Below the pieces are notes generated by a model. The model made no database searches and was not told the DNA's origin. It was given only the letters and a program-made list of their open reading frames with translations. A stretch of DNA of 64,000 nucleotides from Yinghuangia soli. Lineage in GTDB: Bacteria > Actinomycetota > Actinomycetes > Streptomycetales > Streptomycetaceae. The stretch is taken from positions 54,351 through 118,350 of the forward strand of contig NZ_JAKFHA010000007.1 in assembly GCF_021502675.1 (NCBI RefSeq). The letters run 5' to 3'. Positions within the stretch are counted from its first letter, which is position 1; each line of letters begins with the position of its first letter. The position numbers and the translations under genes are program-made. Of this stretch, positions 4,371 through 62,322 are shown in pieces.

Positions 4371-5324
4371 CTATTTGACGGCGCCCGCCATGACGCCCTG
4401 CACGAAGTGCCGCTGGAAGGCGAAGAAGACCAGCAGCGGGACGATGAGGGAGAGGAACGCGCCGGGGGCCAGGACTTCGATGTTGGCGCCGAAGGCCCGG
4501 GACTGCGATTGCAGGGCGACGGTCAGCGGGGCCGAGTCGTTGTCGGCGTAGATGAGGGCGATGAGCATGTCGTTCCAGACCCACAGGAACTGGAAGATGG
4601 CCAACGAGGCGATCGCCGGTCGGCCGAGCGGCAGGATGACCCGGAAGAAGATGGTCAGGTCGGTGCCGCCGTCCATGCGGGCGGCCTCCAGCAGGTCCTT
4701 GGGGATGCCCGCGAAGTAGTTGCGCAGCAGGAAGACCGCGAACGGCAGCCCGAACGCGACGTGGAATAGGACCACGCCCGCGATGGTGCCGAACAGGCCT
4801 ACGTCGCCGTACAACTGGGAGACCGGGATCAGCGCGACCTGCACCGGCACCACAAGGAGGCCGACGACGATCAGGAAGAGCCAGTCGCGGCCCGGGAATT
4901 CGAGCCAGGCGAAGGCGTACGCGGCGAGTGCGCCGATGAGGATCACGAGGACCGTGCTGGGCACGGTGATCCAGATCGTGTTGAAGAACGCCCGCATCAT
5001 GTCGTCGTCGGACAGCAGCCGGTCGTAGTTGTCCCACGTCATCTGGCCGGGTTCGGTGAAGACCTTCCACCATCCGGACGTCCCGGTCTCCTGCGGCGAG
5101 CGCAGCGACGAGACCAGGAGTCCGAAGGTGGGCATCATCCAGAACAGCGCGACCAGGACCAGCCCGACCGCGACCGCCCCGCCGCCGGTGCGTCCGGCGA
5201 TGCGGGAGGCGAGGGACCGGTGGATGCCGCCGTCGCCGCGCTTCCCGGGCCCGGGTCCGGGTTCGGGCGCGGCCTCGGGGGCGGGCAGCGGTGCGGACGC
5301 CGCCGGTGCGGCTCCCCCGGTCAT
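4371..5324 (-). CDS. Carbohydrate ABC transporter permease, MalG type
   Basis: A 317-residue inner-membrane permease, the last gene of a four-gene sugar importer. After a Pro/Ala/Gly-rich N-terminus of about 45 residues come six predicted membrane helices, the first in VGLVLVALFWMMPTFGLLVS. The EAA loop EAARMDGGTDLTIFFRVILP contacts the ATPase, and the C-terminus (FFAFQRHFVQGVMAGAVK) is typical of MalG-type permeases. ATG 5324 has GGGAGA just upstream and overlaps the stop of the MalF-type gene (ATGA), so translation is coupled. It should pair with that permease to form the channel. Confidence 0.93.
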   Translation of the reverse strand: MTGGAAPAASAPLPAPEAAPEPGPGPGKRGDGGIHRSLASRIAGRTGGGAVAVGLVLVALFWMMPTFGLLVSSLRSPQETGTSGWWKVFTEPGQMTWDNYDRLLSDDDMMRAFFNTIWITVPSTVLVILIGALAAYAFAWLEFPGRDWLFLIVVGLLVVPVQVALIPVSQLYGDVGLFGTIAGVVLFHVAFGLPFAVFLLRNYFAGIPKDLLEAARMDGGTDLTIFFRVILPLGRPAIASLAIFQFLWVWNDMLIALIYADNDSAPLTVALQSQSRAFGANIEVLAPGAFLSLIVPLLVFFAFQRHFVQGVMAGAVK

Positions 5325-14641: not shown

Positions 14642-15571
14642 ATGAAGCTCGGCACGATACTGCGGCCTGCCGCCGCGGTGGTCCTGGGCGCGCTCGTCCT
14701 GACCGGCTGCGGCGACGACAAGAAGGACGACAAGGGCAACGCCGCACCGGCCGGCTCGGCGGCCCCCGGCGGCAGCTCCGCGCCCGCCGCGGACGCGCCG
14801 AAGAAGATCGTCTCGCTGACCCCGTCGGCCACCGAGATGCTGTACGCGATCGGCGCCGGCAAGCAGGTCGTGGCCGTCGACGACCAGTCGAACTTCCCGG
14901 CCGAGGCGCCCAAGACCGAGCTGTCCGGCTTCAAGCCGAACGTCGAGGCGATCGCCAAGTACACCCCGGACATGGTCGTCATCTCGGACGACATCGACGG
15001 CGTGAAGGCCAAGCTCGAGACCCTGAAGATCAAGGTCGTCGAGGTGCCCGCCGCGAAGAACTTCACCGAGATGTACGCGCAGTTCGACAAGCTCGGCGCG
15101 GCCACCGGGCACGCCGGCGAGGCCGCCGCGGTCACCGCCAAGATGAAGAAGGACATCGAGGAGATCGTCGCCAAGGCCAAGAAGCCGGCGGCGCCCTTGA
15201 ACTACTTCCACGAGCTGGACAACTCCGGCTACAGCGTCACGTCCAAGACGTTCATCGGCGAGGTCTACGGGCTGTTCGGCCTGAAGAACATCGCGGACGC
15301 GGCGGACAAGAGCGGCTCCGGCTACCCGCAGGTCTCCACCGAGCACATCGTGCAGGCCGACCCGGACCTGATCTTCCTGGCCGACACCAAGTGCTGCCAG
15401 CAGAACCTGGACACCGTGTCGAAGCGCCCGGGCTGGGACAAGATCAAGGCCGTGCAGACCGGCAACGTGGTCGCCCTCGACGACGACATCGCGTCCCGCT
15501 GGGGCCCGCGCGTGGTCGACCTGGTGAAGGCCGTCGCGCAGGCGGTCGACAAGGCCGGCGCCGGCGCGTGA
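14642..15571 (+). CDS. btuF: Cobalamin/corrinoid ABC transporter substrate-binding lipoprotein
   Basis: A 309-residue binding protein of the BtuF/FepB (class III) fold. It has a lipoprotein signal ending in LVLTGC and an acidic/Lys-rich tether, then PKKIVSLTPSATEMLYAIGA, the usual start of BtuF proteins, and later PDMVVISDDIDGVK. The cobalamin riboswitch upstream and the cbiZ gene downstream make a corrinoid ligand much more likely than a siderophore. ATG 14642 follows GGGAGA. The TGA overlaps the GTG of btuC (GTGA). Confidence 0.92.
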   Translation: MKLGTILRPAAAVVLGALVLTGCGDDKKDDKGNAAPAGSAAPGGSSAPAADAPKKIVSLTPSATEMLYAIGAGKQVVAVDDQSNFPAEAPKTELSGFKPNVEAIAKYTPDMVVISDDIDGVKAKLETLKIKVVEVPAAKNFTEMYAQFDKLGAATGHAGEAAAVTAKMKKDIEEIVAKAKKPAAPLNYFHELDNSGYSVTSKTFIGEVYGLFGLKNIADAADKSGSGYPQVSTEHIVQADPDLIFLADTKCCQQNLDTVSKRPGWDKIKAVQTGNVVALDDDIASRWGPRVVDLVKAVAQAVDKAGAGA

Positions 15572-16635
15572 TATCCCGTCCTGCGATCCGGCGCCGGCCG
15601 GCAGCCGAAGGCCGCGCGTACGTCGCGTACGCGGTCGGCACCGTGCTGCTGGTCGGCGCCGTGATCGCAGGCCTGCTGGTCGGCGCGGCCGACCTGCCGG
15701 TCCGCGGCGTGCTCCTCGCGCTCATGGACCTGCTGCCGGGGGTGAGCGTCGACCACGGGCTGACCCCCGTGGAGTACGCGCTGCTCATGGAGATCCGCAT
15801 GCCGCGCGTGGTCGGCGCGGTGCTGGTCGGCGGCCTGCTGGCGGTCGCGGGGGCGGGCTACCAAGGGGTGTTCCGCAACCCGATGGCCGATCCGTACCTG
15901 CTCGGTGCGGCGGCCGGCGCGGGGCTCGGCGCGACCCTGGTGATCGGCTACTGGGACGTCGAATCGGTGGCCGGCATCGGCGTGGTGCCGCTGGCCGCCT
16001 TCGTCGGCGCGATCGCGGGCGTGCTCATGGCGTACGCGCTGGGCGCCACCGCGGGACGCGTGGAGGGCACCGTCACGCTGGTGCTCGCCGGGGTCGCGGT
16101 CTCCGCATTCCTGTCCGCGGTGCAGACGTTCGTCATGCAGGACAAGGTCGACGAACTGCGCCGCATCTACAGCTGGATCCTCGGCAGCCTGACCTCGGTC
16201 GGCTGGACCGAAGTGCAACTGGCGCTCCCGTACGCCGCGGTCAGCGTCTTCGTGCTGCTGCTGCACGGCCGGCTCCTCGACGTCATGACGGTCGGCGACG
16301 AGGAGGCCGCGGTACTCGGCGTCGACGCCGCGAAGGTGCGCTTCCTCGTGCTGCTCGCCGCCTCGCTGGCCACCGCGACCGCGGTGGCGATCAGCGGCCT
16401 GATCGGCTTCCTCGGCATCGTCGTGCCGCATGCGGTACGCCGCCTCGCGGGCGGCAGCTACCGCCGCATCCTGCCGCTGTCGGTGCTGGCCGGCGGCGCG
16501 TTCCTGGTGGTCGCGGACATCATCGCGCGCACCGTCACGGCACCCGGCGAACTGCCGATCGGCGTCGTCACCGCGTTCATCGGCGCCCCGTTCTTCGTGG
16601 TCGTGCTGCGCGCCACGCGGCGGGTGGACCTGTGA
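15568..16635 (+). CDS. btuC: Corrinoid ABC transporter permease
   Basis: A 355-residue FecCD/BtuC-family permease with about ten membrane helices. Family marks include MEIRMPRVVGAVLVGGLLAV, AGAGYQGVFRNPMADPYLLG and AISGLIGFLGIVVPHAVRRL. It starts at GTG 15568, overlapping the btuF stop by four bases, and its own stop overlaps the btuD start (GTGA), so the three transport genes are translationally coupled. The frame is open upstream to 14617, but that is a shadow of btuF. Confidence 0.94.
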   Translation: MISRPAIRRRPAAEGRAYVAYAVGTVLLVGAVIAGLLVGAADLPVRGVLLALMDLLPGVSVDHGLTPVEYALLMEIRMPRVVGAVLVGGLLAVAGAGYQGVFRNPMADPYLLGAAAGAGLGATLVIGYWDVESVAGIGVVPLAAFVGAIAGVLMAYALGATAGRVEGTVTLVLAGVAVSAFLSAVQTFVMQDKVDELRRIYSWILGSLTSVGWTEVQLALPYAAVSVFVLLLHGRLLDVMTVGDEEAAVLGVDAAKVRFLVLLAASLATATAVAISGLIGFLGIVVPHAVRRLAGGSYRRILPLSVLAGGAFLVVADIIARTVTAPGELPIGVVTAFIGAPFFVVVLRATRRVDL

Positions 16636-17444
16636 CCGGCCTGGAGATCGCCGGCCTCGACGTGGCCCGCGACCGCTGCCCGGTCCTGCAGGGCATCGAC
16701 GCGCAGGTCGGACAGGGCGGCTGGCTGGCCGTCATCGGCCCCAACGGGGCCGGCAAGTCGACGCTGCTCAAGGCCGTCGCCGGGCTCCTCCCCTATACCG
16801 GCACGGTAACCGCGGCCGGGGTCCCGCTGCGCGGCCTGGCGGCCCGCAAGCTGGCCCGGACCATCGCGTACACGCCGCAGGACCCGGTGGTCCCGGCGCA
16901 GATGTCGGTGCGCGAGTACGTCCTCCTGGGCCGCACCCCCTATCTGGGCTACCTCGCGGTGCCCGGGCGCAGCGACCGGGCGATCGTCGACGGCGTGCTG
17001 GAGCGCCTCGACCTCGGCTCTTTCGCGGAGCGCGAGGTCGGCCGGCTGTCCGGCGGCGAACGCCAGCGCGCCGTCCTGGCCCGGGCGCTCGCCCAGCAGG
17101 CCCCGGTGCTGCTGCTCGACGAGCCGACCACCGCGCTGGACCTCGGCCACCAGCAGCAGGTGCTCGAACTCGTCGACCGGCTGCGCCGCGACGACGGCCT
17201 CACGGTGGTGACCACGCTGCACGACCTCGGGGTCGCCGCGCAGTACGCGGACCGCTTGCTGCTCCTGGTCGAGGGCCGCGCGGTGGCGTCCGGGACGGCC
17301 GCCGAAGTACTGACCCCGGAGAGCATCGCCCGGCACTACAACGCGCACGTCGAGGTCACGACGGGCACGGACGGGCGGCCGCAGGTGCACTTGGTGCGGC
17401 CGGGTCGCGACACCGCGGTCCCGGTGCGAAAGGCGGATGCGTGA
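16632..17444 (+). CDS. btuD: Corrinoid ABC transporter ATP-binding protein
   Basis: A 270-residue ATPase of the FecE/BtuD type. Motifs: Walker A GPNGAGKSTLLKAVAG, Q-loop YTPQDPVVPAQMSV, signature LSGGERQRAVLARALAQ, Walker B LLLDEPTTALDLGHQQQ and switch TTLHDLGVAAQ. The start is GTG 16632, overlapping the btuC stop. Its end overlaps the start of cbiZ by eight bases if cbiZ begins at 17437. Confidence 0.94.
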   Translation: MTGLEIAGLDVARDRCPVLQGIDAQVGQGGWLAVIGPNGAGKSTLLKAVAGLLPYTGTVTAAGVPLRGLAARKLARTIAYTPQDPVVPAQMSVREYVLLGRTPYLGYLAVPGRSDRAIVDGVLERLDLGSFAEREVGRLSGGERQRAVLARALAQQAPVLLLDEPTTALDLGHQQQVLELVDRLRRDDGLTVVTTLHDLGVAAQYADRLLLLVEGRAVASGTAAEVLTPESIARHYNAHVEVTTGTDGRPQVHLVRPGRDTAVPVRKADA

Positions 17445-18171
17445 CATGACCACGCTGCCTGCGCCGTCCGGCGGTTCCCGGTACGAGGCGCCCGTCACGC
17501 GGCCCTTCCCCTCGCCCGGACTCGTCCGCCACGACGGGTGGCCGACCCTGGTCTGGCGTCTCGGTCCGGGCTGGCGGACGGTCTCCAGCGCGATCCTCGG
17601 CGGCGGCCTCGGCGACCGCGAGTGGCTGGTGAACATGCAGGTGCAGCCCGGGTATTCGCGGATGGACCCGGCCCGGCACCTGACCGAGGCGGCCGCCGCG
17701 CAGGGCCTCGACCCGGCGGCCCCCGGGGTCGGGCTCATGACCGCCGCCCAGGTCGACGCGTACACGTCCGGCGAGGACCAGGGCGTGCGCGCGTGGGCGA
17801 CCACCGGCATCGGCATCCCCGTCTGGGCCGCCGCCCCGGAGCCAGGTGCGGCCGGGATCCCGGCCCCCGGCACGATCAACATCGTGGCCGCGCTACCGGT
17901 CCCGATGAGCGACGCGGCCCTGGTGAACGCGGTCGCCACGGCCACCGAGGCCAAAGTTCAGGCCCTGATCGAGACCGGCTACGCCTGCACCGGCACCCCC
18001 TCGGACGCGATCTGCATCGCCGCCCCCGTCGCAGGTCCGGCCGACGAGCCCGAGCTTTTCGGCGGCCCCCGCTCGGTCTGGGGCGCCCGGCTCGCCCGCG
18101 CGGTCCACGCGGCCGTCGCGCAGGGCGCCCGGGACGACCGCGTACGCCGATCGGCCCGCGAGGGGTCATGA
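17437..18171 (+). CDS. cbiZ: Adenosylcobinamide amidohydrolase
   Basis: A 244-residue CbiZ-family enzyme, which cuts the aminopropanol arm from adenosylcobinamide to give adenosylcobyric acid, letting the cell rebuild its own cobamide from scavenged corrinoids. Marks include SSAILGGGLGDREWLVNMQV, VGLMTAAQVDAY, GTINIVAALPVPMSDAALVN, ATEAKVQAL and CTGTPSDAICIA. Two ATGs are possible, 17437 and 17446; the first is four bases after AAAGGCGG and the second may be better spaced. Placement behind btuFCD and a B12 riboswitch fits salvage. Its stop overlaps the fasR start. Confidence 0.9.
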   Translation: MRDMTTLPAPSGGSRYEAPVTRPFPSPGLVRHDGWPTLVWRLGPGWRTVSSAILGGGLGDREWLVNMQVQPGYSRMDPARHLTEAAAAQGLDPAAPGVGLMTAAQVDAYTSGEDQGVRAWATTGIGIPVWAAAPEPGAAGIPAPGTINIVAALPVPMSDAALVNAVATATEAKVQALIETGYACTGTPSDAICIAAPVAGPADEPELFGGPRSVWGARLARAVHAAVAQGARDDRVRRSAREGS

Positions 18172-19367
18172 TGGTCCCCGTGACCTCCCGATCTTCCGGA
18201 TCCGACGCCGCCAAGCGGGCCGCGACCGTACGCCGGCTCGAGAAGTCCGCGGGCACGCTGGCCGGCGCCGCCGCGGCCCGGATGGACGAGACCCTCAAGT
18301 GGTACCGCAACATGCCGGCCGACAACCGGTCGTGGATCGGCCTCGTCGCGCAGGCCGGCATCGCCGCGTTCACCGAGTGGTTCCGGCACCCCGAGGCCCC
18401 GTACGCGGTCAGCGCCGACGTCTTCGGGACCGCGCCGCGCGAGCTGACCCGGGCCATCACGCTGCCGCAGACCGTCGAACTCGTCCGGGTGACCATCGAG
18501 GTCGTCGAGGCGCAGATCGAGGAACTCGCCGCCCCCGGCTACGCCCAGGTGCTGCGCGAGGCGCTGCTGCTCTACTCCCGCGAGATCGCCTTCGCGACCG
18601 CGCAGGTCTACGCGCACGCCGCCGAGGCGCGCGGCGCGTGGGACGCCCGCCTGGAGGCGCTGGTCGTGCACTCGCTGCTGCGCGGCGAGGCCGACGAGGG
18701 CATCCTGTCCCGGGCCGCGGCGCTGGGCTGGGGCTCGCCGGAATCCGTCATGGTGGTGGTCGGCAACGCCCCGGACGGCGACACCCAGGCCGTGGTGGAC
18801 AGCATCCACCGGGCCGGCCGCAACGCCCGCCTCAACGTGCTGACCGGCGTGCAGGGCGGCCGCCTCGTGGTGATCCTGGGCGGCGCGGAGGACCCGCTGC
18901 GCGCCACGCGCTCGCTGATCGGCCAGTTCGGGCCGGGCCCGGTGGTCGTGGGGCCGAGCGTGCCCGATCTGCTGGCGGCTGTAGGGTCGGCACAGTCGGC
19001 GACCGCCGGCCACCGCGCCTGCGCGGCCTGGCCGGACGCCCCGCGGCCGGTGCTCTCCGACGACCTGCTGCCCGAACGCGCGCTGGCCGGCGACGAGGAA
19101 GCCCGGCGGCAGCTGGTGGAGGAGATCTACATACCGCTGCACGCGGCGGGTTCCGCGTTGCTGGAGACACTGTCGGTGTACCTGGAGCAGGCCTCTTCCC
19201 TGGAAGGCGCGGCACGCATGCTTTTCGTGCACCCGAATACCGTGCGTTACCGGCTGCGACGCGTCATGGACGTCACCGGCCTGGTACCGACGGAGGCCCG
19301 TTCCGCTTTCACGCTGCAGGTGTCGCTGATCCTCGGGCGGCTGGCCGCCGCGGACGGCGTTTTGTAG
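18168..19367 (+). CDS. fasR: PucR-family transcriptional regulator of fatty acid synthesis
   Basis: A 399-residue regulator resembling Streptomyces FasR, the activator of the fabDHPF operon. The N-terminal half has GTLAGAAAARMDETLKWYRN and an all-helical region. The C-terminal PucR-type helix-turn-helix (LETLSVYLEQASSLEGAARM, then LFVHPNTVRYRLRRV) binds DNA. Possible starts are ATG 18168, ATG 18171 and GTG 18180; the first overlaps the cbiZ stop. Its usual target, fabD, begins 79 bases after its stop. A 21-bp dyad covers its last codons. FabD neighbourhood and sequence support the name; the ligand is believed to be acyl-CoA-like but is not shown here. Confidence 0.88.
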   Translation: MMVPVTSRSSGSDAAKRAATVRRLEKSAGTLAGAAAARMDETLKWYRNMPADNRSWIGLVAQAGIAAFTEWFRHPEAPYAVSADVFGTAPRELTRAITLPQTVELVRVTIEVVEAQIEELAAPGYAQVLREALLLYSREIAFATAQVYAHAAEARGAWDARLEALVVHSLLRGEADEGILSRAAALGWGSPESVMVVVGNAPDGDTQAVVDSIHRAGRNARLNVLTGVQGGRLVVILGGAEDPLRATRSLIGQFGPGPVVVGPSVPDLLAAVGSAQSATAGHRACAAWPDAPRPVLSDDLLPERALAGDEEARRQLVEEIYIPLHAAGSALLETLSVYLEQASSLEGAARMLFVHPNTVRYRLRRVMDVTGLVPTEARSAFTLQVSLILGRLAAADGVL

Positions 19368-19446: not shown

Positions 19447-20628
19447 GTGCTCGTACTCGTCGCGCCCGGACAGGGTGCCCAGACTCCCGGTTTCCTCACG
19501 CCCTGGCTCGACCTGCCCGGGGTGGCCGACCGCCTCACGTGGTGGTCCGCGGTCACCGGGCTCGACCTCATCCACTACGGAACCCAGGCCGACGCCGAGC
19601 AGATCCGGGACACCGCGATCGCCCAGCCGCTGCTGGTCGCGTCCGGCCTGGTGGCCGCCCTCGCGCTGTTCCCGCACCCGTCGGACGCGTACCGCGTGGT
19701 GGGCGCCGCGGCCGGGCACAGCGTCGGCGAGCTGACCGCGGCGGCCGGCACCGGCGTCATCACCGCGGAGTCCGCGATGGTCCTGGTCCGCGAGCGCGGC
19801 AAGGCGATGGCCGCCGCCGCGGCGGTCACCGAGACCGGCATGTCCGCGGTTCTGGGCGGCGACCCCGACGCGGTGGTCGCCAAGATCACCGAGCACGGCC
19901 TGACCCCGGCCAACATGAACGGCGCCGGGCAGATCGTGGCGGCCGGCACCCTCCCGCAGCTGGAGGCGTTCGCCGCCGACCCGCCCGAGAAGGCCCGGGT
20001 GCGGCCGCTGCCGGTGGCCGGCGCGTTCCACACCCACCACATGGCGCCCGCGGTGGCCCGGCTCGCCGAGCTGGTCCCCGGCGTGACCGTGCGCGACCCG
20101 CGCACCCCGTACATCTCCAACACCGACGGCGCGGTGCTGCACGACGGCCGCGAGATCGTCGCGCGCCTGGTCAGCCAGGTCTCCAACCCGGTCCGCTGGG
20201 ACCTGTGCATGGAGACCATGCGCGACCTGGGCGTCACCGCGATGATCGAGGTCACCCCGGCGGGCACGCTGACCGGGCTGGCCAAGCGCGCGCTGCCCGG
20301 CATCGAGACCGTCGCCCTCAAGACCCCCGACGACCTGGACGCCGCCCGCGCCCTGGTCGAAAAGCACGGCACCCCCAGCCAGATCGACGCGTCGCCGACG
20401 TGGCGCCTGGTGGTGGCACCGTTCAAGGGCATCGTGCACCAGGCGGGCATCCGCCCCGGCGACGACCTGGCGCCCGGCGCCGAGGTCGGCGTCGTCCGTT
20501 CGCACCGCGACGAGCAGGCGATCACCGTGCCGCACGGCGGCACCGTGGTCGAGTGGCTGGTCGAGGACGGCGACCCGGTGGCACCCGGCATGCCGCTGCT
20601 CCGCATCCACCCCAGGGGTGCCGTGTGA
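19447..20628 (+). CDS. fabD: Malonyl-CoA:ACP transacylase with C-terminal biotinyl/lipoyl-like domain
   Basis: A 393-residue protein. Residues 1-300 are a typical malonyltransferase that loads malonyl groups from CoA onto ACP: oxyanion GQGAQ, catalytic Ser92 in AAGHSVGE, His195 in AGAFHTHHM. Most FabD proteins end near 310. Here residues about 318-390 add a domain patterned like biotinyl carrier domains (VVAPFKGIVHQ, GDDLAPGAEVGVV, ITVPHGGTVVEWLVEDGDPV, PLLRI). In the turn where carriers have EAMKMENEI this has RSHRDEQAI, so the modifiable Lys is Arg. The GTG start at 19447 has GGAGGG upstream. First gene of the fab cluster. Confidence 0.93.
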   Translation: MLVLVAPGQGAQTPGFLTPWLDLPGVADRLTWWSAVTGLDLIHYGTQADAEQIRDTAIAQPLLVASGLVAALALFPHPSDAYRVVGAAAGHSVGELTAAAGTGVITAESAMVLVRERGKAMAAAAAVTETGMSAVLGGDPDAVVAKITEHGLTPANMNGAGQIVAAGTLPQLEAFAADPPEKARVRPLPVAGAFHTHHMAPAVARLAELVPGVTVRDPRTPYISNTDGAVLHDGREIVARLVSQVSNPVRWDLCMETMRDLGVTAMIEVTPAGTLTGLAKRALPGIETVALKTPDDLDAARALVEKHGTPSQIDASPTWRLVVAPFKGIVHQAGIRPGDDLAPGAEVGVVRSHRDEQAITVPHGGTVVEWLVEDGDPVAPGMPLLRIHPRGAV

Positions 20629-20683: not shown

Positions 20684-21694
20684 GTGACCGCTTCCATCCG
20701 TCCCGCCGTCGGAGCACCGCACGCCCGCATCTGGGGCGTCGGCGGCTACCGGCCGGTCCGGGTCGTACCGAACTCCGAGCTGATCGAGCGCATCGACTCG
20801 TCCGACGAGTGGATCCAGTCGCGGTCCGGCATCAAGACCCGCCGCTGGGCCAACGACGAAGAGACCGTCGCCGAGATGTCGATCGCGGCGGCCGGCAAGG
20901 CGCTCGCGCACGCCGGCATCTCCGCCGACCAGGTCGGCTGCGTCATCGTCTCGACGGTCACGCACCTCAAGCAGACCCCGGCCATCGCCACCGAGATCGC
21001 CTACCGGCTCGGCGCCGGCGGCGGCCGCGCGGCGGCGTTCGACGTCTCCGCGGCGTGCGCCGGCTTCTGCTACGGCCTCACCCTCGCCAACGACCTGATC
21101 CGCGGCGGCAGCGCCGAGTACGTGCTGGTCATCGGCGTCGAGCGGCTGTCCGACCTGACCAACCCGGACGACCGCGGCACCGCGTTCATCTTCGGCGACG
21201 GTGCGGGCGCGGTCGTGGTCGGCCCGTCCGACGTGCCCGGCATCGGCCCGGTCGTGTGGGGCTCGGACGGCTCCAACTCCGAGGCGATCGAGCAGACCGA
21301 GTCGTGGGAAGAGCTGCGCGACAACGCCGAGGCGACCTTCCCGACGCTGCGCATGGAAGGCCAGAAGGTCTTCCGCTGGGCGGTCTGGGAGATGGCCAAG
21401 GTGTGCAAGGAGGCCCTCGACGCGGCCGGCGTGGCCGTCGGCGAGCTCGACGCCTTCATCCCGCACCAGGCCAACATGCGCATCACCGACGCGATGATCA
21501 AGGCGCTGCAGCTGCCCGCCGAGGTCCCCGTCGCGCGCGACATCGCCGAGTCCGGCAACACCTCCGCGGCCTCCATCCCGCTGGCCATGGAGCGCATGCT
21601 CGAGACCGGCGAGGCGCCCAGCGGCGGCACCGCTCTGGTCATGGGTTTCGGGGCCGGTCTCGTCTACGCGGGACAGGTCATTACGCTTCCCTGA
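20684..21694 (+). CDS. fabH: Beta-ketoacyl-ACP synthase III
   Basis: A 336-residue KAS III that starts each fatty acid by condensing acyl-CoA with malonyl-ACP. The catalytic triad is Cys125 (DVSAACAGFCYG), His261 (IPHQANMR) and Asn292 (ESGNTSAASIP). The start is GTG 20684 with GGGAGGA nine bases before; the open frame to 20618 lies in the spacer after fabD. Actinobacterial FabH enzymes usually prefer branched primers, but that cannot be read here. It is followed by acpP. Confidence 0.96.
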   Translation: MTASIRPAVGAPHARIWGVGGYRPVRVVPNSELIERIDSSDEWIQSRSGIKTRRWANDEETVAEMSIAAAGKALAHAGISADQVGCVIVSTVTHLKQTPAIATEIAYRLGAGGGRAAAFDVSAACAGFCYGLTLANDLIRGGSAEYVLVIGVERLSDLTNPDDRGTAFIFGDGAGAVVVGPSDVPGIGPVVWGSDGSNSEAIEQTESWEELRDNAEATFPTLRMEGQKVFRWAVWEMAKVCKEALDAAGVAVGELDAFIPHQANMRITDAMIKALQLPAEVPVARDIAESGNTSAASIPLAMERMLETGEAPSGGTALVMGFGAGLVYAGQVITLP

Positions 21695-21798: not shown

Positions 21799-22047
21799 AT
21801 GGCAAGCCAGGAGGAGATCCTCGCGGGTCTCGCCGAGATCGTGAACGAGATCGCGGGCACGGAGGTCGAAGACGTCCAGCTCGACAAGTCGTTCACCGAG
21901 GACCTGGACATCGACTCGCTGTCGATGGTCGAGGTCGTGGTGGCCGCCGAGGAGAAGTTCGACGTCAAGATCCCGGACGACGACGTCAAGGGTCTGCGCA
22001 CGGTCGGCGACGCGGTCAACTACATCTTGAACGCCTCCGGCAAGTGA
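21799..22047 (+). CDS. acpP: Acyl carrier protein
   Basis: An 82-residue acidic carrier protein. The phosphopantetheine attachment Ser40 lies in LDIDSLSMVEV. Its composition and the C-terminal TVGDAVNYILNASGK match primary-metabolism AcpP. ATG 21799 follows AAGGAG with good spacing. It lies between fabH and fabF, as in Streptomyces fab clusters. A strong hairpin directly follows its stop. Confidence 0.96.
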   Translation: MASQEEILAGLAEIVNEIAGTEVEDVQLDKSFTEDLDIDSLSMVEVVVAAEEKFDVKIPDDDVKGLRTVGDAVNYILNASGK

Positions 22048-22289: not shown

Positions 22290-23588
22290 GTGAGCCCGAC
22301 CAAGCGCACCGAGACCCCGCGCACCGTGGTCGTCACCGGTCTGGGCGCGACCACGCCGGTCGGCGGCGACGTCCCGTCGACCTGGTCCGCACTGCTGGCC
22401 GGCAAGTCCGGCATCCGCACGCTGACCGAGGAATGGGCCGAGCAGATCCCCGTGCAGTTCGCCGGCCGGGTCGCCGTCGAACCGCTCGAGGTCATGCCGA
22501 AGGTCGAGGCCCGCAAGCTCGACCGGTCCGGCCAGTTCGCCATGATCGCGGCCCGCGAGGCATGGGCCGACGCCGGCTTCGCGGCCAAGAACACCCCTGC
22601 CGAGGACGGCTCCGGCGAGACCGTCGACGAACTGCGCCTCGGCGTGGTCATCGCCTCCGGCATCGGCGGCGTCACCACGCTGCTGGACGCCTGGGACGTC
22701 TTCAAGGAGAAGGGCCCGCGCCGCGTCGGCCCGCTCACCGTCCCGATGCTCATGCCCAACAGCCCGGCCGCCAACGTCGGCATCGAGCTGCGCGCCCGGG
22801 CCGGTGTGCACACCCCGGTCAGCGCCTGCGCCTCCGGTGCCGAAGCCGTCGCGTACGCCCTGGAGATGATCCGCTCGGGCCGCGCCGACGTGGTGCTCTG
22901 CGGCGGCACCGAGGCCGCGATCCACCCGCTGCCGATGGCCGCGTTCGCCAACATGATGGCGATGTCCAAGCGCAACGACGAGCCGCAGCGCGCCTCGCGC
23001 CCCTACGACAAGAGCCGCGACGGCTTCGTCATGGGCGAGGGCGCCGGCTGCCTGGTCCTGGAGAGCGCCGAGTACGCCGCCGCCCGCGGTGCCCGCGTGT
23101 ACGCCGAGGTGGCCGGCGCCGGCATGACCTCGGACGGCCACCACATCGCGCAGCCCGAGCCCGAAGGCCGCGACATCGCCCGCGCGATGGCGCTGGCCAT
23201 CGAGGACGCCGGCGCGAGCGTCGACCAGGTCGTGCACGTCAACGCGCACGGCACCTCGACCCCGGCGGGCGACATCACCGAGCTCAAGGCGATCCGCTCG
23301 GTGCTCGGCGACGAAGCCGCCGACAAGGTCTGCGTGACCTCCACCAAGTCGATGACCGGGCACCTGCTCGGCGGCACCGGCGCGGTCGAGTCGGTCGCGA
23401 CCGTGCTGGCGGTCTACCACCGCATGGCCCCGCCGACCATCAATGTCGACGACCCGGACGACGACGTCTGCCTGGACATCGTCCGCAACGACCCGCGGCC
23501 GCTGCCGGAGGGCGAGATCGTCGCGCTCAACGACTCGTTCGGGTTCGGCGGGCACGATGTGGTCGTCGCCTTCCGCAGCGTGGGCTGA
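22290..23588 (+). CDS. fabF: Beta-ketoacyl-ACP synthase II
   Basis: A 432-residue KAS II that elongates acyl-ACP in fatty acid synthesis. The catalytic residues are Cys180 (PVSACASGAE), His320 (VNAHGTSTPAGD), Lys353 and His358 (STKSMTGHLLGGTGA). It is slightly longer than the usual 410-420 residues because of a short insert around residues 100-112. The start is GTG 22290. It follows fabD-fabH-acpP, with a carboxyltransferase gene 27 bases downstream. Confidence 0.95.
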   Translation: MSPTKRTETPRTVVVTGLGATTPVGGDVPSTWSALLAGKSGIRTLTEEWAEQIPVQFAGRVAVEPLEVMPKVEARKLDRSGQFAMIAAREAWADAGFAAKNTPAEDGSGETVDELRLGVVIASGIGGVTTLLDAWDVFKEKGPRRVGPLTVPMLMPNSPAANVGIELRARAGVHTPVSACASGAEAVAYALEMIRSGRADVVLCGGTEAAIHPLPMAAFANMMAMSKRNDEPQRASRPYDKSRDGFVMGEGAGCLVLESAEYAAARGARVYAEVAGAGMTSDGHHIAQPEPEGRDIARAMALAIEDAGASVDQVVHVNAHGTSTPAGDITELKAIRSVLGDEAADKVCVTSTKSMTGHLLGGTGAVESVATVLAVYHRMAPPTINVDDPDDDVCLDIVRNDPRPLPEGEIVALNDSFGFGGHDVVVAFRSVG

Positions 23589-23615: not shown

Positions 23616-25046
23616 ATGACCGTCATCGAGAACCGCCCGGCGGCCGCCGCACCCGGCCGGCCCGCCCGGGACAGCGACCCGCGCAACCCGCGGCTGCGCC
23701 TGCAGCGGCTCGTCGACGAGGGCAGCTACGAGGAGATCTCGCCGTACGACCGCTCCGGCATGCTCGCGTGCGTCGGCACGGTCGGCGGCACCCGCGTGGT
23801 GGCGTACGCCTCCGACCCGACCGTGCAGGGCGGCGCCATGGGCGTCGAGGGCTGCCAGGTCGTGGTCGACGCGTACGAGCGCGCGCTGGCCGAGGACTGC
23901 CCGATCATCGCGCTGTTCCACTCGGGCGGCGCGCGCCTGCAGGAAGGCGTGTCCTCGCTCGATGCGGTGGGCCGCATCTTCCACGCGATGACGCTGGCGT
24001 CCGGCCGGATCCCGCAGATCTCCGTGGTGCTCGGCGCCGCGGCGGGCGGCGCGGCGTACGGGCCGGCGCTGACCGACCTGGTCATCCTGGCCCCGGAAGG
24101 CCGCGTATTCGTCACCGGACCGGACGTGGTCCGCTCGGTGACCGGCGAGGACGTCGACGCGCTGCGGCTCGGCGGCCCCGAGCCGCACGGCCGGCGCAGC
24201 GGCGTCGTGCACGTCGTCGCGGAGTCCGAGCAGGACGCCCTGGACCGGGCCCGGCAGCTCGCGTCGCTGCTCGCCGACCAGGGCGAGATCGACCCGGCGA
24301 AGCTCGACCGCCGCGAACTCGCGGCGCTGCTGCCCGAGTCGCCCAAGCGGGCGTACGACGTGCACCCGGTGGTCGACGGCCTGCTCGACGAGCCGGGCCT
24401 GGAACTGCACCCCAAGTGGGCGCCGAACATCACCACGACGCTCGGCCGGCTCGGCGGCCGGACGGTCGGCGTGGTCGCCAACAACCCGCTGCGGCTGGGC
24501 GGCTGCCTGGACTCGGCGTCGGCCGAGAAAGCGGCGCGCTTCGTGCGGATGTGCGACGCGTTCGGGGTACCGCTGGTCGTGGTCGTGGACGTGCCCGGCT
24601 ACCTGCCCGGCGTGGGCCAGGAGTGGGACGGCGTGGTGCGCCGCGGCGCGAAGCTGCTGCACGCATTCGGCGAATGCGTGGTGCCGCGCGTGACGCTGGT
24701 GACCCGGAAGGCGTACGGCGGCGCGTACATCGCGATGAACGCCGCCTCGCTGGGCGCCACCCGGGTCCTGGCCTGGCCGACCGCCGAGGTCGCGGTCATG
24801 GGCGCGGTCGCGGCGGTGCGCATCCTGCACCGGCGGCGCCTCGCCGAGGTGCCGGACGAGCTCAAGGCGCAGGTCGAGCTGGAGCTCGCGGCCGAGCACG
24901 AGAAGGTCGCGGGCGGCCTGGCCCGGGCCGTCGAGATCGGCGTCGTGCACGAGGTCGTCGATCCGGCGGAGAGCCGGATCGCGCTGGCGAAGGCCATCGC
25001 CGCGGCACCGCAGCAGCGCGGGCGGCACGGCAACATCCCGCTGTAG
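23616..25046 (+). CDS. Acyl-CoA carboxylase carboxyltransferase (beta) subunit
   Basis: A 476-residue protein with both halves of the carboxyltransferase fold (N-terminal about residues 30-250, C-terminal to the end), like PccB/AccD of actinobacterial acyl-CoA carboxylases. Marks include IALFHSGGARLQEGVSSL, GAAAGGAAYGPAL, VVDVPGYLPGVGQEWDGVVR and KAYGGAYIAMNAASLGATR. It would move the carboxyl group from biotin to acetyl- or propionyl-CoA and so make the malonyl-CoA that FabD uses. Neither biotin carrier nor biotin carboxylase is encoded nearby. Substrate (acetyl versus propionyl) is not certain. ATG 23616 is 27 bases after fabF. Confidence 0.92.
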   Translation: MTVIENRPAAAAPGRPARDSDPRNPRLRLQRLVDEGSYEEISPYDRSGMLACVGTVGGTRVVAYASDPTVQGGAMGVEGCQVVVDAYERALAEDCPIIALFHSGGARLQEGVSSLDAVGRIFHAMTLASGRIPQISVVLGAAAGGAAYGPALTDLVILAPEGRVFVTGPDVVRSVTGEDVDALRLGGPEPHGRRSGVVHVVAESEQDALDRARQLASLLADQGEIDPAKLDRRELAALLPESPKRAYDVHPVVDGLLDEPGLELHPKWAPNITTTLGRLGGRTVGVVANNPLRLGGCLDSASAEKAARFVRMCDAFGVPLVVVVDVPGYLPGVGQEWDGVVRRGAKLLHAFGECVVPRVTLVTRKAYGGAYIAMNAASLGATRVLAWPTAEVAVMGAVAAVRILHRRRLAEVPDELKAQVELELAAEHEKVAGGLARAVEIGVVHEVVDPAESRIALAKAIAAAPQQRGRHGNIPL

Positions 25047-25142: not shown

Positions 25143-25637
25143 TCAGACGACCTGGTGGAGCCAGCGGACCGGGGCGCCCTCGCCCGCGTAGCGGAAGGGC
25201 TCCAGTTCGTCGTCCCACGGCTTGCCGAGCAGCTTCTCGATCTCGCCCTGCAGGTCGCACTCGCCGCGGGCGGCGCGGCCCAGGACCGCGCGCAACCGGT
25301 CCTCGGGGATGAGGATGTCGCCATGCGCCCCCGTGACCGCATGGAAGATGCCCAGGTCGGGGGTGTTGCTGTAGCGCTCGCCCTCGGCGCCCGGGGAGGG
25401 CTCCTCGGTCACCTCGAAGCGCAGCAGATGCCACCCGCGCAGCGCCGACGCCAGCTTGGCCGCGGTGCCGGGGCGGCCGTGCCACGACATCTCGGCACGC
25501 AGCATCCCGGGCGCGGCCGGCTGACGGACCCAGTCCAGGCTCAAGCGCACGCCAAGAACGCCCTGTGCGGCCCACTCGACGTGGGGGCACAGCGCGCGCG
25601 GCGCGGAGTGCACGTACAAGACTCCACGTGTCGTCAC
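25143..25637 (-). CDS. DUF3145 family protein
   Basis: A 164-residue protein matching the actinobacterial DUF3145 family, whose function I do not know. Recognisable segments are RGVLYVHSAPRALCPHVEWA at the N-terminus, ALRGWHLLRFEVTEEP in the middle and GKPWDDELEPFRYAGEGAP near the end. It has no membrane segment. It starts at GTG 25637 and converges on the fab cluster, a place it also occupies in Streptomyces, so a link with lipid metabolism or growth is possible but unproven. Confidence 0.92.
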   Translation of the reverse strand: MTTRGVLYVHSAPRALCPHVEWAAQGVLGVRLSLDWVRQPAAPGMLRAEMSWHGRPGTAAKLASALRGWHLLRFEVTEEPSPGAEGERYSNTPDLGIFHAVTGAHGDILIPEDRLRAVLGRAARGECDLQGEIEKLLGKPWDDELEPFRYAGEGAPVRWLHQVV

Positions 25638-27124: not shown

Positions 27125-27354
27125 GGGAAACGCACGCCACCCCAACGCCACGCACCCGTTCGAGTGAAACGCCGCAGATCATTGCGGACAGGGTTGCTAA
27201 GCTCGCGGGCGAAGCGCGACAGTAGCCGGGCAAACACAATCCGTGATCGCCATCAGCACCTGGTGCGTACGGTTCCCTCCGGAGATCCGAAGGAAACCCC
27301 GCAGCCCGGAGGGGCGTTCACGCGAAGGCGCCTGCGCGCACGCGCAATAACGAG

Positions 27355-27428
27355 TAGGGCGGGTGGGACTCGAACCCACGACCGAGGGATTATGAGTCCC
27401 TTGCTCTAACCGGCTGAGCTACCGCCCC
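27355..27428 (-). tRNA. tRNA with CAT anticodon (Ile2/lysidine type or elongator Met)
   Basis: A 74-base cloverleaf on the minus strand. The anticodon stem AGGGA/TCCCT encloses the loop CTCATAA, giving anticodon CAT. The D arm starts GCTCAG and the T arm is GTGGG-TTCGAGT-CCCAC. The anticodon stem lacks the three G-C pairs of initiator tRNA. Whether it is tRNA-Ile2 (lysidine-modified) or elongator tRNA-Met cannot be settled by eye. The acceptor ends in a G1-U72 wobble pair and CCA is not encoded. Confidence 0.9.
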
Positions 27429-28313: not shown

Positions 28314-28381
28314 GCGCAGCGGGGAAGCAAGAAGCCCCATGGCCGTCGACCATGGGGCTTGGTTCTGCTCCTCTGCTTGGG

Positions 28382-28454
28382 CTCCCCCGACTGGACTCGA
28401 ACCAGTAACCTGCCGGTTAACAGCCGGCTGCTCTGCCAATTGAGCTACAGGGGA
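28382..28454 (-). tRNA. tRNA-Asn (GTT)
   Basis: A 73-base cloverleaf on the minus strand. The acceptor TCCCCTG pairs with CGGGGGA, the discriminator is G73, the anticodon loop is CTGTTAA (anticodon GTT) and the T arm is ACTGG-TTCGAGT-CCAGT. CCA is not encoded. The 264 bases beyond it (28455-28718) hold no gene that I can support. Confidence 0.95.
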
Positions 28455-60716: not shown

Positions 60717-60786
60717 CCGCGGGACGCGCGGGACCCGCGGGAAACAGAGAACGGGGTGTGCTGGGCCATGAGCGCCGTGCCGAGGG

Positions 60787-62322
60787 CTACTTGAGGTAGT
60801 CCTCGAATCCCTTCGGCAGTTCGAACTTGCCCGCGTCGGCGCCGGCCGGGAGCTCGAAGCCGCCCGCGGCGCGCTCCTCGCGCCGCTGGGCCGCGGCGAT
60901 CTCCTCCTGCTTGCGCTTCATCGGGTTGCCCGACTGGCGCTTGCCCTTGGCCTGCTTGGGCGCCTTGCCCTTCTTCTTGGCCCCGCCGCCCATGCCCGGC
61001 ATGCCGGGGAAGCCGCCGCCGCGGGCCATCGACGTCATCATCTTGCGGGCCTCGAAGAACCGCTCGATGAGGTTGTTGACCTCGGTGACCGTGCACCCGG
61101 AGCCCTTGGCGATACGGGCCCGGCGCGAGCCGTTGATGATCTTCGGGTCGTCGCGCTCGCCGGGGGTCATCGACTTGATGATGGCCGCGACCCGGTCCAG
61201 GTCGCGGTCGTCGATGCTGTCGATCTGCTCCTTCATCTGCCCCATGCCGGGCAGCATGCCGAGAAGCTTGGAGATCGACCCCATCTTCTTGACCTGCTCC
61301 ATCTGCTGGAGGAAGTCCTCCAGAGTGAAGTCCTTGCCGCCCTTCTGGATCTTCTCGGCGGCCTTGAGCGCGACGTCCGCGTCGTACTTCTGCTCGGCCA
61401 TCTCGATGAGGCTGAGCATGTCGCCCATGCCGAGGATGCGGGACGCCATGCGGTCCGGGTGGAACGCGTCGAAGTCGTCCAGCTTCTCGCCGTTGGAGGC
61501 GAACATGACCTGCCGGCCGGTGACCTGCGCGACCGAGAGCGCGGCACCGCCGCGGGCGTCGCCGTCGAGCTTGGAGAGCACCACGCCGTCGAAGCCGACG
61601 CCGTCGAGGAAGGCCTGCGCGGTGGTCACCGCGTCCTGGCCGATCATCGCGTCGACCACGAAGAGGATCTCGTCCGGGTTGACGGCGTCGCGGATGTCCG
61701 CGGCCTGCTGCATCATCTCGGCGTCGATGCCGAGGCGGCCGGCGGTGTCGACGACGACCACGTCGTACTGCTTGGTGCGGGCGTACTCGATCGAGTCGCG
61801 GGCCACCCTGACCGGGTCGCCCACGCCGTTGCCCGGCTCGGGCGCGTAGACCGCGACGCCGGCGCGCTCGGCGACCACGCTGAGCTGGTTGACCGCATTG
61901 GGGCGCTGCAGGTCGCAGGCCACCAGCAGGGGCGAGTGCTTCTGCGACTTGAGCCACTGGCCGAGCTTGCCCGCGAGGGTCGTCTTGCCCGCGCCCTGGA
62001 GGCCGGCCAGCATGATCACGGTCGGGGCGGTCTTGGCGAACCGCAGGCGCCGCGTCTCGCCGCCGAGAATCCGGACGAGCTCCTCGTTGACGATCTTGAC
62101 GATCTGCTGCGCCGGGTTCAGCGCCTGCGACACCTCCGCGCCGCGCGCCCGCTCCTTGACGTGCGCGACGAACTCGCGGACGACCGGCAGCGCGACGTCC
62201 GCCTCGAGCAGCGCCACCCGGATCTCCCGGGCGGTGGCGTCGATGTCGGCCTCGGAGAGCCGGCCCTTGCCGCGGAGGTTCTTGAAGGTCGCTGCGAGGC
62301 GGTCGGAAAGAGTGTCGAACAC
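60787..62322 (-). CDS. ffh: Signal recognition particle protein
   Basis: A 511-residue SRP54 GTPase that binds signal sequences on the ribosome and hands them to FtsY. After the N domain come G1 GLQGAGKTTLAGKLGQWL, G3 VVDTAGRLGID, G4 LSKLDGDARGG and the RNA/signal-binding M domain (GSGCTVTEVNNLIERFFEAR, then KMMTSMARG). The M domain has a Gly/Met/Lys-rich finger and the tail ends FELPKGFEDYLK, typical of Streptomyces Ffh. ATG 62322 is clear. It follows glnD. Confidence 0.97.
   Translation of the reverse strand: MFDTLSDRLAATFKNLRGKGRLSEADIDATAREIRVALLEADVALPVVREFVAHVKERARGAEVSQALNPAQQIVKIVNEELVRILGGETRRLRFAKTAPTVIMLAGLQGAGKTTLAGKLGQWLKSQKHSPLLVACDLQRPNAVNQLSVVAERAGVAVYAPEPGNGVGDPVRVARDSIEYARTKQYDVVVVDTAGRLGIDAEMMQQAADIRDAVNPDEILFVVDAMIGQDAVTTAQAFLDGVGFDGVVLSKLDGDARGGAALSVAQVTGRQVMFASNGEKLDDFDAFHPDRMASRILGMGDMLSLIEMAEQKYDADVALKAAEKIQKGGKDFTLEDFLQQMEQVKKMGSISKLLGMLPGMGQMKEQIDSIDDRDLDRVAAIIKSMTPGERDDPKIINGSRRARIAKGSGCTVTEVNNLIERFFEARKMMTSMARGGGFPGMPGMGGGAKKKGKAPKQAKGKRQSGNPMKRKQEEIAAAQRREERAAGGFELPAGADAGKFELPKGFEDYLK

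Follow-up and report, generated by a model that had tools for sequence, protein, structure and literature searches.

The FabD encoded in the window, a 64,000-nucleotide stretch of Yinghuangia soli DNA, ends in a biotinyl-like domain without the modifiable lysine, and in about half of the sampled tree this tail and AccD, the carboxyltransferase subunit encoded at the end of the same cluster, are kept or lost jointly. A FabD with a non-carrier biotinyl-like tail, evolutionarily linked to one carboxyltransferase, is a new variant, though its sequences must already sit in public protein records; a search of titles and abstract openings in the open-licence literature returned no paper on a biotinyl-like tail on FabD. 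The significance of the finding is that a widespread FabD has a carrier-shaped domain unable to carry, and that its presence tracks a particular carboxyltransferase. To our knowledge, it is not settled whether the carboxylase that makes malonyl-CoA is physically linked to the type II fatty-acid synthase in bacteria.

The fatty-acid cluster runs along the forward strand in the order PucR-type regulator, fabD, fabH, acpP, fabF and accD. The regulator (18165..19367, +; PucR-type HTH, HTH_30 and GGDEF_2 matches, start codon provisional) is FasR-like, a name that we assume for it, and its gene precedes fabD in most relatives with sufficient flank. fabD (19447-20628, +) is an intact reading frame of 393 codons with a GTG start at 19447. 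It is followed by the genes for FabH (20684..21694, +; ACP_syn_III and ACP_syn_III_C), an acyl carrier protein of 82 residues (21799..22047, +; assigned from the reading frame and a DSL motif seen by eye), FabF (22290..23588, +; ketoacyl-synt and Ketoacyl-synt_C) and, fourth downstream of fabD, the acyl-CoA carboxylase carboxyltransferase subunit AccD, of the AccD6 type (23616..25046, +; Carboxyl_trans, E 3.5e-118).

Residues 1-312 of FabD (19447..20382, +) constitute the catalytic core of a malonyl-CoA:ACP transacylase (Acyl_transf_1, E 3.9e-17). The core has the acyl-transferase fold with a GHSxGE serine and a histidine, which we take to be the active-site residues, and both GHSVGE and the FHT histidine are invariant in A1 and A2. 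The nearest solved structure is S. coelicolor FabD (1nm2; VIA-align Z 49.0, 66% identity, residues 1-308), which has the same core fold and catalytic motifs but stops at profile position 309; of the 58 PDB sequences retrieved with the FabD profile at E 1e-10, none covers the tail. The protein scores below the NCBIfam cut-offs for the fabD equivalog (TIGR00128, 167.8 bits against 260.9) and for mdcH (TIGR03131, 180.4 against 297.9). FabD is nevertheless the best name because of the identity to the S. coelicolor enzyme and the fab cluster context, and under that name a transacylase activity with malonyl-CoA and ACP is predicted.

Window positions 20380-20628 encode residues 312-393 and the stop codon. 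Because VIA-align with the whole FabD model in practice tested residues 1-309, the tail was folded and searched alone. It begins with a putatively flexible linker, residues about 313-316 (20383..20394, +), marked by low pLDDT (below 50 at residues 314-317 of the whole-protein prediction) and variable columns in the tail alignment, and continues as a lysine-less biotinyl-like domain, residues about 317-390 (20395..20616, +), recognised by sequence matches and predicted fold. The best NCBIfam match of the isolated tail was the C-terminus of pyruvate carboxylase subunit B (E 6.9e-7) and its best PDB sequence match was the biotinyl end of human propionyl-CoA carboxylase alpha (E 1.3e-5). The Pfam Biotin_lipoyl cut-off (PF00364, 22.1 bits) was missed by the tail alone (20.9), the whole protein (16.4) and in the genome scan (18.9). 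AlphaFold2 returned an all-strand model of the tail with a mean pLDDT of 90.9, for which the top Foldseek matches were biotin carboxyl carrier proteins (BCCPs; E 2.6e-6 and TMq 0.76 for Pyrococcus BCCP), and VIA-align superposed 73 of its residues on E. coli BCCP 1bdo (Z 12.4, rmsd 2.4). The modelled tail has the barrel-sandwich biotinyl fold, with a similarity well beyond chance. The original prediction had read a biotinyl pattern at residues about 318-390, a range that these matches bear out, and structure prediction gave the carrier-domain fold it had suggested. The pTM of 0.78 for whole FabD, beside a pLDDT of 92.9 and the low-confidence linker, is consistent with two domains whose mutual orientation is not fixed.

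The tail shares its fold and two quasi-repeated halves with the BCCP domains of E. coli AccB (1bdo), Pyrococcus BCCP (2d5d) and the C-terminus of propionyl-CoA carboxylase alpha, and in most FabD tails a hairpin sits in the equivalent place. In the window protein this is RSHRDEQ, residues 351-357 (20497..20517, +), at the site of the biotin-carrying hairpin, with Arg354 at the lysine position. Unlike the BCCP domains, the tails are joined to FabD instead of a carboxylase subunit, 15 of them have no hairpin tip, and none of the 96 distinct tails, including those from other classes of the phylum, has a modifiable lysine at the tip: at that position there are 64 Arg, 15 gaps, 7 Gly, 3 Gln, 3 Ala, 2 Ser, 1 His and 1 Tyr. 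For this reason we do not file the tail as a PF00364 carrier domain. The lysine is thus absent, as the original prediction had stated, but it was not replaced in the window gene as such, since no tail in the set has one.

Purifying selection acts on the tail, though somewhat less strongly than on the core: dN/dS is 0.17 for the tail and 0.09 for the core against G002, and 0.29 and 0.20 against G020. Together with its conserved residues and the lack of a lysine anywhere, this points to an old domain with a job rather than a decaying carrier. Conservation across the 78 distinct class tails is highest at Pro317, Trp319, Arg320, Gly328, Gly365, Glu369, Trp370, Leu371, Asp376, Val378, Pro380, Gly381, Pro383, Arg386 and Pro389. 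The best-conserved stretch by column, residues 363-389 (HGGTVVEWLVEDGDPVAPGMPLLRIHP; 20533..20613, +), holds 15 of the 22 near-invariant positions. Within the hairpin, 64 of the 78 class tails have Arg354, and 70 have Asp or Glu at position 355. A conservation peak that falls outside the hairpin, in the second half of the domain, does not favour a tail that would plainly imitate biotin delivery.

The extension proved common in other actinobacterial FabD proteins, and most relatives outside the large tailless genera have it. Among 61 genomes, matches extending to at least residue 389 occurred in the family of the window, in its order and in several additional families, with Jiangella, Nocardioides, Kribbella, Actinospica, Actinocrinis and Phytoactinopolyspora as named genera. 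Streptomyces, apart from Streptomyces sp. SCUT-3, had no tail among the records listed, nor did Kitasatospora and Actinomadura. Across 396 genomes of the phylum, a scan identified at least 18 full-length tailed FabD proteins in five families of other classes. These 18 tails, searched for an ancestral lysine, had no intact biotin motif, and the hairpin tip was absent from 15 of them. The tip-less tails of other classes (L146-L158, L160, L161) have a differing conserved pattern, with VRSPFAG, ERV and QPIAWLR. In plasmid records, the tail was aligned in none of the 10 matches listed of 423, eight of the 423 covering at least 80% of the query.

The link between the tail and AccD is already visible in the window's own family. 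Twelve of its 130 genomes have a tailed FabD, and 11 of these (the exception is G011) encode a close AccD at 77% identity or more; no close AccD was found in the 118 tailless genomes, one of which, G006, carries a 58% identical homologue at another site. Of the named loci, those without the tail never have accD next to the fab genes, several of their contigs ending early. Both states occur inside single genera, the tail and AccD appearing together in G000 and G002 versus G001 (g1), in G020 and G451 versus G005 and G030 (g4), and in G023 versus G009 (g8). The FabH, ACP and FabF of tailless G001 are 91-93% identical to those of the window; the genes between the tail and accD follow a vertical history, so that a swap-in of a distant cluster is unlikely.

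We then scored loci across the class. The class sample comprised 148 genomes, 133 with FabD and 110 scorable; eight tailless own-family genomes and 15 unscorable ones (contig ends, partial genes) were left out. Relatives numbered 38, or 35 without three unscorable ones, and include L316-L318, hand-picked from the family list. The 145 scorable loci divide into 61 with both features, 42 with neither, 38 with AccD only and 4 with the tail only, and in the main test on them the tail and AccD changed the same way in 9.1 of 14 independent contrasts and opposite ways in 0.9 (median p 0.02). For the class sample alone (46 both, 38 AccD only, 23 neither, 3 tail only) the corresponding counts were 4.8 and 0.9 (median p 0.22). 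An earlier test on a FabD-only tree of 137 loci gave 4.2 same and 0.5 opposite of 7 (median p 0.22). A 158-locus set, biased by 20 extra loci taken from contrast families with the tallies already known, gave 9.9 same and 0.5 opposite of 16 (median p 0.004), and we keep the 145-locus test as the main one.

The signal is concentrated in one part of the FabD-FabF tree, whose two halves were defined post hoc with the tree already seen and are divided by a branch with support 31. The 87-locus half contains 49 loci with both features, 35 with neither, 3 with the tail only and none with AccD only; 9.5 of its 10 supported contrasts are same and 0.0 opposite (median p 0.002), and its 11 tail changes and 12 AccD changes are nearly all concordant. 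The 58-locus half contains all 38 AccD-only loci, with 12 both, 7 neither and 1 tail only, and contrasts within it give no tail-AccD association.

Loss of both features is clearest in G001, of the same genus as the window, where FabD is 93% identical to the window protein and ends at residue 312, an intact fabH lies a few tens of bases past the shortened fabD, the cluster AccD is missing and the best AccD homologue anywhere in the genome is 46% identical. A search of tailless G001, G005 and G009 for a tail surviving as a detached gene gave no sign of one, the matches reaching at most 27.1 bits and 36% identity, in the range of unrelated biotinyl domains. Tails without AccD occur at five independent loci of the joined sets (L081, L200, L280, L291 and L319). 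Three of the five deviate strongly at near-invariant positions, with z of 3.2 to 5.3 relative to core divergence, and two look intact; the deviation has a Mann-Whitney p of 0.027, uncorrected for descent. An order in which AccD is lost first and the tail decays afterwards would fit these sequences. Two loci appear to be in transition. At about 4791-5141 of G044 (L198), a 3' fragment of accD (residues 360-476, 73.5% identity) adjoins an intact tailed fabD and looks like a gene on its way out. At L276 (G617), a FabD of 359 residues, its decaying tail missing the middle including the hairpin, adjoins an intact accD, and the opposite order of loss is therefore possible in the half of the tree where AccD occurs without the tail.

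The cluster AccD has a carboxyltransferase domain, its nearest solved structures are AccD6 chains 4l6w (E 1.9e-191) and 4fb8 (E 2.4e-191), and it lies in the fab cluster; we class it on these grounds as a putative AccD6-type beta subunit, with a predicted acetyl-CoA carboxylase activity together with a biotinylated alpha subunit. We compared 99 AccD proteins, 61 encoded beside a tailed FabD and 38 beside a tailless one, at all 476 positions. The best separator of the 476 was Arg184, present in 60 of the 61 and in 1 of the 38. The top six separators are positions 184, 190, 192, 193 and 194 together with Asp338, and the residues of the loop RLGGPEPHGRR (residues 184-194; 24165..24197, +) differ between tailed and tailless lineages. 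With all positions scanned and few contrasts (four supported independent ones, 2.9 same and 0 opposite, p 0.25), the Arg184 signal is to be taken as a lead, not a test.

The nearest solved relative of the cluster AccD, mycobacterial AccD6 of the FAS-II locus, has no Arg184, unlike the window protein. In the PDB, FabD chains from M. tuberculosis align to profile positions 1-300 only, so AccD6 works in that organism beside a tailless FabD. An AccD6-type carboxylase is reported to supply malonyl-CoA for fatty-acid synthesis in mycobacteria (PMC4064979). AlphaFold2 models exist for the E. coli AccABCD complex (PMC10863985); the passages on FabD there concern only the loading of malonyl-CoA onto AcpP and an AcpP-FabD structure.

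We postulate that the FabD tail, attached through a flexible tether, is an ancient copy of a BCCP domain that was never biotinylated, and that in Actinomycetia it works with the AccD6-type carboxyltransferase encoded in the fab cluster. By docking on AccD as a pseudo-BCCP, the tail would keep FabD, the user of malonyl-CoA, beside its maker. Some form of functional cooperation between the tail and AccD is probable. The more specific proposal of a tethered pseudo-BCCP that touches the AccD6-type carboxyltransferase directly is, in our judgement, evenly balanced between right and wrong; loop 184-194 would be the candidate contact site, and the tail may serve to hand over malonyl-CoA or to co-localise its production and use. 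Bolder still, and tentative to the point of being rather unlikely, is a FabD that forms an integral part of the acetyl-CoA carboxylase, its tail filling a dedicated AccD site near loop 184-194, with malonyl-CoA made and loaded on ACP in one assembly and the tail kept only while AccD is kept, decaying once AccD is lost. Counting against docking are the 38 AccD genes without a tail in the 58-locus half, the class-sample contrasts, which alone give a median p of 0.22, the two intact-looking tails among the five loci that lack AccD, and the tails of other classes, which occur without an AccD of this type. The best carboxyltransferases of the 18 tailed genomes in those classes are 43-47% identical to the window AccD, and all 18 have a different loop without Arg184. 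Binding the AccD carboxylase need not have been the original role of the tail, since these genomes have no AccD of this type; either the tail had another original partner or role, or the AccD link arose within Actinomycetia. The original prediction, which had the domain bind the carboxylase whose carboxyltransferase is encoded at the cluster end, survives in part, as an evolutionary link, given the joint retention or loss across many lineages, the degenerate state of three of five AccD-less tails and the differing AccD loop.

The tail could instead act within FabD, on stability, dimerisation, orientation to ACP or ligand sensing, its link to AccD being indirect in that a changed malonyl-CoA supply would relax the need for it. 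The tails without AccD of this type in the 18 other-class genomes and at five loci of the class agree with such a role, and the highly conserved second half of the domain might be a surface for contacts within FabD. The low-confidence linker and the pTM of whole FabD, however, do not suggest fixed packing on the core, and a role of this kind leaves unexplained both the lack of any AccD without a tail in the 87-locus half and the AccD loop that tracks the state of the tail; we consider it unlikely. Less room is left for an accessory subunit that, like epsilon, would help the AccD6-type carboxylase to assemble or stay active, hand-over not being the point. The joint tail-AccD losses fit it equally, and the epsilon gene of the window genome adjoins another carboxyltransferase paralogue (contig C5), not the cluster AccD. 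AccD persists without the tail in the 58-locus half, however, and 60 of 61 relatives encode ACC_epsilon whether they are tailed or tailless, with no pattern of replacement, so that a tail replacing the epsilon subunit was rejected and the accessory role itself appears quite improbable. A linkage or shared-history artefact, recombination or a few early losses having taken both cluster ends with no functional link, might draw on the roughly 3 kb between tail and accD and on the class-sample contrasts, which alone are not significant, but it is made very improbable by the vertically inherited fabH, acpP and fabF retained in between, the states split inside three genera and the nearly complete concordance of the 11 tail and 12 AccD changes in the 87-locus half.

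For the docking of a pseudo-BCCP tail on AccD, which we prefer, same-genus sister species that have or lack both features offer natural pairs for testing. Should docking prove real, the tail would be a ready-made adaptor between the supply of malonyl-CoA and fatty-acid or polyketide synthesis, and would present a defined surface to mutate.

The surroundings of the cluster gave several minor observations. A DUF3145 gene at 25143-25637 (-) is convergent with the fab cluster and stays nearby in most relatives with a long enough flank. By eye, the upstream reading frames at 14642-17444 resemble an ABC importer for a metal or cofactor, with binding protein, permease and ATPase, and the window carries genes for tRNA-Met (27354-27428, -), tRNA-Asn (28380-28454, -) and tRNA-Ser (60754-60840, +). 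Two metagenome bins titled Bifidobacterium breve (L075 and L113) have a fab cluster of this type, and their titles are probably wrong.
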